Shown here piece after piece: positions 52,251 to 56,906 of a stretch of DNA of 64,000 nt (the stretch's first letter is position 1; each line of letters starts with the position of its first letter). Location: positions 62,001-126,000 of the forward strand of contig BGOK01000003.1 of NCBI GenBank assembly GCA_003569205.1, read 5' to 3'. The stretch is from Verrucomicrobiota bacterium. GTDB taxonomy: Bacteria; Verrucomicrobiota; Verrucomicrobiia; Opitutales; UBA953. The position numbers were made by a program, and so were the translations under genes. Under the pieces are notes generated by a model that worked only from the letters and a program-made list of their open reading frames with translations, did no database searches and was not told the origin of the DNA.

Positions 52251-52271
52251 GCGTCCATTCAGTCCTTAACG

Positions 52272-52305
52272 CAGGCCCCGGGAGACCGGGGCCTGTTTTA
52301 TTTAT
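52272..52305 (+). terminator. Intrinsic terminator of the xylose cluster
   Basis: A hairpin GCAGGCCCCGG/CCGGGGCCTG with a short GAGA-like loop is followed by TTTTATTTATT. The convergent tspO stop (52298) lies in the T-run. Confidence 0.88.
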
Positions 52306-55071: not shown

Positions 55072-55177
55072 AACACCATTTTCTGCTTAAAATCGGGGTT
55101 TTGGCGAGCCGAGTCTGTGCCTGCTTGCCTTTGCCTTTGACTCAAACGGGGGATTTCCCTGAAGTAGGCCTTCTCCC

Positions 55178-55261
55178 ATGGAATCCCCGGCACAGTCTCA
55201 GACCCTTCCCCTCGTGGGCGGTCGTGCCATTATCCCTGCGATTATCATCATCGGGCTCTAA
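55178..55261 (+). CDS. Isoleucine-rich leader peptide of cimA
   Basis: A 27-codon ORF opens at the ATG at 55178 and ends with TAA at 55259-55261, 89 bases before cimA. Residues 18-25 are Ile-Ile-Pro-Ala-Ile-Ile-Ile-Ile, so six of its last ten sense codons are Ile (ATT or ATC). Leu and Val codons are also present (residues 10, 12, 13, 27). This is the layout of ilv-type attenuator leaders, in which a ribosome stalls at Ile codons when charged tRNA-Ile is scarce. The downstream gene makes the committed precursor for isoleucine, so the codon content matches the end product. No homologue search was possible. Confidence 0.8.
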   Translation: MESPAQSQTLPLVGGRAIIPAIIIIGL

Positions 55262-55350
55262 GCCCGCTGAACGGGTCGCCTCCAGCGACTTCCCGTTCCG
55301 CGGCTTCCGGAACGGCGACCTCCCTTACACCTCTTCCCACCCCCACTACT
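55252..55350 (+). promoter_or_regulatory. Attenuator-like RNA between leader peptide and cimA
   Basis: Three foldings compete. Stem A: GGGCT/AGCCC around the leader stop (55253-55265). Stem B: AACGGGTCGC paired with GCGA-CTT-CCCGTT (55270-55297). Stem C: GGTCGCC (55274-55280) paired with GGCGACC (55314-55320), enclosing the hairpin GTTCCG/CGGAAC. B and C cannot coexist. No T-run follows C; instead 55321-55350 is a pyrimidine-rich stretch without any G, running up to the cimA ATG. This suggests Rho-dependent or translational control, not an intrinsic terminator. The helices are seen; the mechanism is inference. Confidence 0.6.
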
Positions 55351-56906
55351 ATGGCACGAAAAATCGAAATCTATGACACCACCCTCCGCGACGGCTCGCA
55401 GGGTCTGGGGATTCATTTCTCGGTCGCTGACAAGCTGCGCGTCGCCCAGGAGCTCGAGCGCTTCGGGGTGACCTACATCGAGGGCGGCTGGCCCGGTTCC
55501 AACCCGCGCGATATCGAATTCTTCCACGAAGCCCGCAAGTTGAAGTTCAAGCATGCTAAGCTCGCGGCGTTCGGCTCCACCCGTAAGAAGGGCATCCGCG
55601 CCTCCGAAGATGCGCAGGTCAAAGGCTTGCTCGAGGTCGAGACCCCGGTCGTCACTATTTACGGTAAGACCTCCGCCCTGCACGTCCGGGAAGTCCTGCG
55701 CTGCACGCCGGAGGAAAACTTGGCGATGATTGCCGACACGGTCGCTTTCCTGAAGTCCCATGGCCGTGAGGTCGTCTACGACTGCGAGCATGCAATCGAC
55801 GGGTGGAAGGAAGACCCCGCCTATGCGGCGGCCTGTTTCCGTGCCGCTGCGAAGCCGGTGCCTCGCGTATCGTCCTCTGCGACACCAATGGTGGTTGCTT
55901 GCCTGATGAGGTTGCTGAGGCCACCCGCCATGCCCGTGCCGCCGTGAAGGCCGCCATCGGCATCCACACCCACGATGACTCGGGCTTAGCCCTCGCTAAT
56001 GCTTTGGCCTCGTTGGACGCGGGCGCTGTCCATGTTCAGGGCACGATGAATGGTATCGGTGAACGCACCGGCAATTGTGACCTCACGGCCGTCATCCCGG
56101 TCGCGCAGATCAAGCGCGGTTGGAGCTGCGTCCCCGCCGCTTCACTCAAGAGGCTCACCGCGCTTTCCCGCTTCATCGATGGCGTTACCAACCAAGCCCC
56201 CGATCCACGTCGTCCGTGGGTGGGCGCGGCTGCGTTCGCCCACAAGGGTGGCACGCACGTCGATGCTATCCGAAAGTTTTCCGCCGCCTATGAGCACGTT
56301 GACCCTTCCGCCGTGGGTAATGCGCGTGACGTCTTGGTGAGCGACCAGTCGGGTCGCAGTAACCTGCTCCTCAAGGCCGCCGAGCTGGGTATCGAACTCG
56401 ACAAGGACGCTCCGTCCACCCGCGTCGCGCTTGAAGAACTCAAGAAACTCGAGCACAAAGGTTGGAGCTTCGAGGACGCCGATGCCTCGCTGGCCTTGTT
56501 GCTTCGTAGTCACATGGGCAAATCCGCCGTCGTGCCTTTCGAAGTCGTGAAGTATCACATCTCCGTGCAGGGCGGCCTCAAGGACGCCAGTTGCGAAGCC
56601 ACCGTGCGCGTCCGTATCAACGGCAAGGAATCCCTGACCGTCGCGGAAGGCGAAGGACCAGTGCATGCGCTCGACCAAGCTCTCCGCGAGGCCCTCGTGA
56701 AGGCATTTCCCAAGTTGAAGAAGGTACACCTCGCTGACTATAAGGTCCGCGTCCTCGCCGGTCAGGATGGGACCTCGGCCCAGACCCGCGTCGTCATCCG
56801 TTCCACCGACGGCACCCGCTCCTGGGGTACGGTCGGTGTCAGTAATAATCTCATCGAGGCGTCCTTACGGGCCATCGTTGATGGTTATGCCTACGCTTTA
56901 TCCTAA
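55351..56906 (+). pseudogene. cimA: Citramalate synthase, one single-base frameshift
   Basis: The enzyme condenses pyruvate and acetyl-CoA to citramalate, the first step of threonine-independent isoleucine synthesis. The N-terminal part (from 55351) carries 'IYDTTLRDGSQG' and 'RFGVTYIEGGWPGSNPRD', typical of CimA, not of isopropylmalate synthase. The frame breaks near 55845-55852; adding one base there gives 'EAGASRIVLCDTNGG', and the second frame runs to 56906 with 'GIHTHDDSGLALAN', 'TMNGIGERTGNCDL' and the C-terminal LeuA-type regulatory domain. The repaired length is 518 residues, as expected. Because the gene sits behind an intact leader and is otherwise conserved, a sequencing error is more likely than loss. 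Allosteric control by isoleucine is known for the family. Confidence 0.85.

Follow-up and report, generated by a model that had tools for sequence, protein, structure and literature searches.

The stretch from 55178 to 55350 of the window (the whole 64-kb stretch of DNA that was analysed, part of a 2.23-Mb draft genome in 34 contigs that is 85% complete) probably acts on cimA, the gene of citramalate synthase, as an isoleucine attenuator that depends on translation. A short leader peptide with a run of Ile codons precedes the gene, and the RNA behind these codons has the potential to fold into competing helices, one of which (3:4) would block the expression of cimA and another (2:3) would permit it. 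The coding frame and its Ile codons are conserved in relatives, the helices exclude each other and are properly placed with respect to the codons, and a flip between them is predicted by computation; the sensing half of the switch is well supported. The features of the locus are the following.

55137..55165, + strand: promoter-like block TTGACT-17-TGAAGT, located 12 nt upstream of the leader ATG
55178..55261, + strand: leader peptide ORF of 27 codons, MESPAQSQTLPLVGGRAIIPAIIIIGL and stop (ATG...TAA), from the ORF list
55220..55228, + strand: conserved GRA codons GGTCGTGCC, identified by codon counts; 7 bases are complementary to the cimA start GGCACGA, with no covariation support
55229..55252, + strand: Ile control codons, two at 55229-55234 and four at 55241-55252, from the sequence and codon counts
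55252..55256, + strand: segment 1 (CGGGC), whose first base is also the third of the last Ile codon (55252)
55262..55274, + strand: segment 2 (GCCCGCTGAACGG), alternative partner of segments 1 and 3
55275..55289, + strand: P2 hairpin (GTCGC...GCGAC), which separates segment 2 from segment 3
55293..55303, + strand: segment 3 (CCGTTCCGCGG), alternative partner of segments 2 (2:3) and 4 (3:4)
55308..55315, + strand: segment 4 (CGGAACGG), completes the attenuator hairpin 3:4
55318..55350, + strand: G-free pyrimidine-rich tract of 33 nt leading up to the cimA ATG, in which neither a U-tract nor a Shine-Dalgarno is seen
55351..56906, + strand: cimA, citramalate synthase, from profile matches and comparison with relatives; frame interrupted near 55850

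The cimA gene

The cimA frame is in two pieces, both of which have TIGR00977 (citramalate synthase) as the best match (E 2.5e-62 and 2.3e-124, each below the whole-protein cut-off). One base that is present in three close relatives is absent from the window near 55850 (55845-55860), and the frame is broken there; the cimA genes of relatives are mostly open frames of >500 aa, and the break is either an assembly error or a recent mutation. Citramalate synthase catalyzes the first step of the pyruvate route to isoleucine. The control codons of the leader therefore fit the end product of the route that the downstream enzyme starts, in agreement with the original prediction.

Conservation of the leader peptide

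The original prediction placed a 27-codon Ile-rich ORF 89 bases before cimA, and this is what is found, the distance being measured from the end of the ORF to the cimA ATG at 55351. We aligned 54 close cimA upstreams, as the prediction had called for (L032-L079, L081, L112-L115, and the window's own locus L004; some genomes are represented twice, from two sources). L080 has no usable upstream and was left out, as were L002-L031, except L004, which are largely from the same genomes. The ORF, its frame and most of its Ile codons, with ATT/ATC exchanges among the latter, are kept in 47 of the 54 upstreams, which amount to 39 distinct leaders. The Ile leader is absent in six; five of these (L074, L075, L076, L079 and L081) have a differing sequence upstream of cimA, and the sixth, L115, is from the sister genus g23, which could mean either a gain of the leader by the genus or its loss from the sister. 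In the seventh upstream that does not have a full leader, L060, the contig begins inside it, and the Ile part is visible. Among the 30 loci L002-L031, a leader scan detects the Ile leader in 28, the exceptions being L010 and the truncated L029. The expectation that relatives share the ORF thus holds for 47 of the close upstreams, and fails for six of them and for most of the distant ones (see below).

At the positions of the window's six Ile codons, Ile is found in 20, 33, 31, 38, 36 and 36 of the 39 distinct leaders. Single-residue replacements in the last Ile run are to Met, Leu, Val, Lys or Thr, and the weakest cases, L040-L042, have just two Ile in this run. The stop codon is TAA in 21 distinct leaders, TGA in 14 and TAG in 4. 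In the alignment, gaps within the coding sequence measure 3 or 6 nt, and it is these gaps that constitute the evidence for the frame, because leader lengths are multiples of three by virtue of how the ORFs were chosen. The N-terminal half of the peptide varies and the C-terminal half is conserved, with strong conservation of the GGT CGT GCC codons; the last residue changes between L, R, G and E. A run of end-product codons in a short leader ORF, a hallmark of classical attenuators, is thus present.

Upstream of the leader ATG, TTGACT is followed after 16-18 nt by TnnnnT, a loose pattern, in 39 of 42 distinct sequences. In the window, the -10 match of this block is weak and the site is absent from the list given by a promoter consensus scan. 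With a promoter at this place, the transcript would begin a few bases ahead of the ATG and the leader ORF would be nearly leaderless itself.

Competing helices

Four segments follow the Ile codons in the order typical of attenuators, and form three mutually exclusive helices: 1:2 (CGGGC/GCCCG), 2:3 (CCGCtGAACGG/CCGTTCcGCGG) and 3:4 (CCGTTCCG/CGGAACGG). In 41 distinct sequences, 99.5%, 98.8% and 96.3% of the cells in 1:2, 2:3 and 3:4, respectively, are paired, compared to 20-47% and 27-46% when the partners of whole structures are slid as a control; competing helices, also proposed originally, are confirmed by these counts. Of the 12 cells in which 3:4 is unpaired, L040 and L041 account, in our reading, for eight. 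In helix 1:2, L073 and L078 have a double change from C-G to G-C, which also alters the last sense codon. Helices 2:3 and 3:4 are nearly invariant, hence they display no double changes and have no covariation support of their own. The P2 hairpin has changes on both sides at four of its five pairs, with 69.8% of cells paired, and its outer two pairs are kept in 7 and 17 of the 41 sequences. The region 55221-55350 is more stable than its dinucleotide shuffles (z -2.84; 1 of 200 shuffles is as good), and the minimum-energy fold of the window contains 1:2 and 3:4. The control codons are located in such a way that a stalled ribosome, given the usual ribosome footprint, would cover segment 1, as is the case in classical attenuators.

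We folded the RNA with segment 1 masked, which represents a ribosome stalled on Ile, or with a mask extending up to the middle of segment 2, which represents a ribosome at the stop codon. The first mask gives 2:3 with a probability of 0.88 in the window and above 0.5 in 34 of 41 sequences; the second gives 3:4, with 0.93 in the window and above 0.5 in 32 of 41. When the RNA is folded without a ribosome, beginning at segment 1, 2:3 is favoured in 31 of the 41 sequences and 3:4 in only 6, although the window's own RNA favours 1:2 (0.70) and 3:4 (0.65). Because ribosome-free RNA mostly favours 2:3, silencing would need either a translating ribosome or kinetic folding, and this preference speaks against a simple equilibrium model in which the untranslated leader RNA would be silent.

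Proposed mechanism and output of the switch

We infer that the leader is transcribed and translated and that it responds to isoleucine, the Ile codons of the peptide acting as the sensor. When Ile-tRNA is scarce, the ribosome would stall on these codons and cover segment 1 (CGGGC), leaving segment 2 to pair with segment 3, so that 3:4 would be blocked and cimA expressed. When isoleucine is plentiful, the ribosome would reach the stop codon, located in the loop between segments 1 and 2, and would cover part of segment 2; 3:4 would then form, and cimA expression would be cut down. The output of 3:4 would most likely be premature transcription termination or lasting arrest, which we rank first, with pairing of the start codon ranked second.

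None of the 41 aligned rows has a U-tract directly after 3:4 (the tail in the window is CGACCTCCCTTACACC), and in some of them TTT or TTTT is found about 10-14 nt beyond the helix. U-tract terminators exist elsewhere in the window, e.g., at 52271-52296, and 16 of its 46 long ORFs are followed by a strong hairpin no more than 90 nt beyond the stop, about 5 of the 16 with a T-rich tail as judged by eye. Before cimA, hairpins with a T-run are seen only in some distant relatives. As the terminator feature was sought and not found in the genus, the cimA leader is best described as working like a classical attenuator and not as a proven member of that class.

Rho-dependent leader attenuation of the tna-like type requires Rho. 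At E<=1e-20, Rho (TIGR00767) was not found in 36 genomes of the genus (g1), 12 of them at least 90% complete, nor at 1e-10 in three further genomes of the genus and one of the sister genus g23; a looser search (E<=0.001) of five genus genomes retrieved, in all five, Rho matches of 18-23 bits only, far below the cut-off of 509. Rho-dependent attenuation is therefore unlikely, and Rho-dependent termination on a C-rich tract, considered as a way to explain the missing U-tract, was set aside. The original reading of the region as an attenuation leader for cimA is supported by the conserved Ile leader and the exclusive helices; termination at 3:4 in the genus is less certain, with no U-tract after 3:4 and no Rho found.

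That Rho was not found in the g1 genomes (G000 included) points to an apparent lineage-specific loss. Rho is present in all four genomes of the sister genus g22, and among 18 genomes of other families of the order the best match reaches 413-554 bits in all but one (G045, 78 bits); 16 genomes of these other families have two strong Rho matches, some of them perhaps fragments. In the literature that we found, represented by excerpts of PMC13323073, Rho loss is described for Bacilli only.

The last 30 nt before cimA contain 0-1 G in 38 of 42 distinct relatives, and the G content of the 55318-55350 tract is the lowest among the 46 long-ORF upstreams in the window, with starts taken mechanically as the first ATG or GTG. 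The predicted mean accessibility of the cimA start (-25..+15) is equal, at 0.72-0.74, across three fold states, the first of which is the only one to include the leader codons. The idea that hairpin 3:4 hides the cimA start was set aside on account of this equality.

Alternative explanations

The same isoleucine sensor might have a translational output, with the leader codons GGTCGTGCC pairing with the cimA start GGCACGA and so hiding it, and a ribosome that stalls on the adjacent Ile codons opening the start; we hold this to be unlikely. Leader TCGTGCC (55222-55228) is perfectly complementary to GGCACGA (55353-55359), 6-7 contiguous pairs are available in 33 of the 42 distinct sequences, with 29 of the 33 using, as we read the table, the CGTGCC:GGCACG register, the top single-pair probability is >0.5 in 14 of 42 and 0.49 in the window, and the codons involved are the strongly conserved GGT CGT GCC. 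An output of this kind would account for the missing U-tract and the missing Rho alike, and there is a precedent of sorts in the LEU element of Actinobacteria, where the Leu codon run has been proposed to pair with the leuA Shine-Dalgarno (PMC1262725, in part). However, the pairing was noticed after the fact and no compensatory change is seen; its register is broken in 13 of 42 sequences (L037, L040-L045, L068, L070, L071, L073, L077 and L078), and the start is predicted to be similarly accessible in the three fold states, as noted above. It is likewise unlikely that, with Rho gone from this lineage, a transcription attenuator has been converted into a terminator-free, translational isoleucine switch, in which the leader codons would hide the cimA start and a starved ribosome would free it, with distant relatives keeping the attenuator and its U-tract terminators.

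Other readings account for one or another of the observations. If the hairpins acted on mRNA stability or RNA polymerase pausing, with the peptide merely marking translation of the leader, the conservation of 3:4 without a terminator tail would make sense, but the Ile run adjoining segment 1 and the exclusive 2:3 helix would be left unexplained, and we consider this quite improbable. The conserved frame and C-terminal half would also be expected of a functional small hydrophobic protein that is not a sensor; yet the peptide is variable in its N-terminal half, its last residue may be L, R, G or E while the pairing of segments 1 and 2 is kept, and other families carry different Ile-rich peptides at the same place, all of which makes such a protein very improbable. 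Finally, short ORFs are common in the window, and one might think of a chance ORF next to chance hairpins, but this is already contradicted by the conservation of the ORF and helices and by the enrichment of Ile relative to shuffles and to all other amino acids, and deserves hardly any credence. The preferred reading thus remains an attenuator that senses isoleucine by translation of the leader and acts through 3:4.

Isoleucine-rich leaders outside the genus

We found cimA in 91 genomes of the order and 131 of the phylum, and the upstreams that were compared represent part of these: 30 loci from each search, with some overlap, and two further batches of 40 regions. The distant set consists of 146 distinct cimA upstreams outside the close set, in which Ile richness was tested against dinucleotide shuffles. 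Ile-rich short ORFs precede cimA at p<=0.01 in 13 of the 146, compared to 0 to 4 for the other 19 amino acids (Lys, 4, and Val, 3, come next), with the caveat that short ORFs need not be translated. The 13 cases include the related pairs L130/L203, L196/L206 and L099/L100, and therefore represent fewer independent events; most distant upstreams have no Ile leader by the shuffle test, so that control of this kind would be patchy. The peptides differ in sequence, for example MPSHQLILGLIIGTLIIS in L130, MKATIIIAAIITIARLPGQVDAA in L158 (GTG start), MASQPAIFGIRIIIGLLCA in L196 and MSARSANAISIIGSIIIGCRPGHGNGA in L099.

An Ile-rich leader is combined with a hairpin and T-run before cimA in L097, L099, L100, L158 (the same place as L193), L186 and L206. 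In the full fold of L099 and L100, leader codons after the Ile run pair with the 5' arm of the terminator, forming a predicted antiterminator, and the sequence downstream of the stop, folded by itself, gives the terminator; such predicted folding is textbook attenuator logic. Several other terminator-like hairpins before cimA were not counted as attenuators: those of L133 and L142 follow tRNA-like sequence and that of L151 follows a reading frame resembling one for a ribosomal protein (all judged by eye), and that of L128 is weak. A search of the window's own genome with the genus model hits a single place, before cimA, and other copies were not found.

Relation to known attenuators

Ribosome-mediated transcription attenuators of the trp/his/leu/ilv type consist of a leader peptide with control codons, segments 1-4 and a U-tract terminator. 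The cimA leader shares with them the control-codon peptide, the segments with their three pairings (1:2, 2:3, 3:4) and the stop codon between segments 1 and 2, and differs in its target, cimA, in its occurrence in Verrucomicrobiota, and in having no U-tract after 3:4 in the genus. No Rfam leader, T-box or riboswitch family scores at the gathering threshold in the window and 20 related loci, where only tRNAs are matched; within 55100-55400 there is a single weak Rfam match (E 0.85), to the opposite strand. In the open-licence PMC literature (subscription papers being outside the scope), we found no published leader-peptide attenuation for cimA or citramalate, or in Verrucomicrobiota or Opitutales, which agrees with the original statement that no cimA leader was known from Verrucomicrobiota-like bacteria. 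One paper of this literature, PMC13158618, concerns a methanogen.

Attenuation of ilvBNC and trp is described in sections of PMC10272879, which also deal with the ilvB-II, ilvB-OMG and Leptospira ilvB motifs. These resemble the cimA leader in that an uORF rich in branched-chain codons precedes a branched-chain gene, and ilvB-II moreover occurs once per genome, as the cimA element does in its own genome. On the other hand, according to the same sections, these motifs are located upstream of ilvB, and ilvB-II has a hairpin and uridine stretch at its end, whereas here nearly all control codons are for Ile and the gene is cimA. The cys leader peptides of Mycobacterium, as presented in excerpts of PMC1262725, likewise have control codons and no recognisable intrinsic terminator; in that case Rho is a weak possibility and there are no conserved terminator hairpins, whereas in our genus Rho was not found and the 2:3/3:4 switch is conserved. 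In the LEU element before leuA of Actinobacteria, discussed in the same excerpts, leader codons may also pair with the downstream initiation site, but that element combines a pseudoknot with Leu codons, and start-codon pairing in the cimA leader is weakly supported.

Val-rich leader-like ORFs are located before ilvB-type genes in L249 (MVNSSQRVVVALVVVLVALVVTSPVERAR), L250 (MISFAHRAVVALVTVVLVLVVGISPVERAR) and L251, from two other families of the order, which suggests a second branched-chain attenuator in those two families. Among five ilvB loci of the genus scanned for leader ORFs, there is one unconvincing ORF only, in L246.

Implications for isoleucine biosynthesis

Conservation of the leader in relatives suggests that the cell makes the cimA enzyme mainly when isoleucine is short. 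If the proposed mechanism is true, isoleucine synthesis via citramalate joins the pathways that are subject to end-product attenuation, Verrucomicrobiota join the bacteria that use it, and Ile-rich leaders of unlike sequence recur before the same enzyme. The genus would then offer a natural case of an attenuator with a conserved sensing half, in a lineage that lacks the customary termination signal and has yielded no Rho match above the cut-off.
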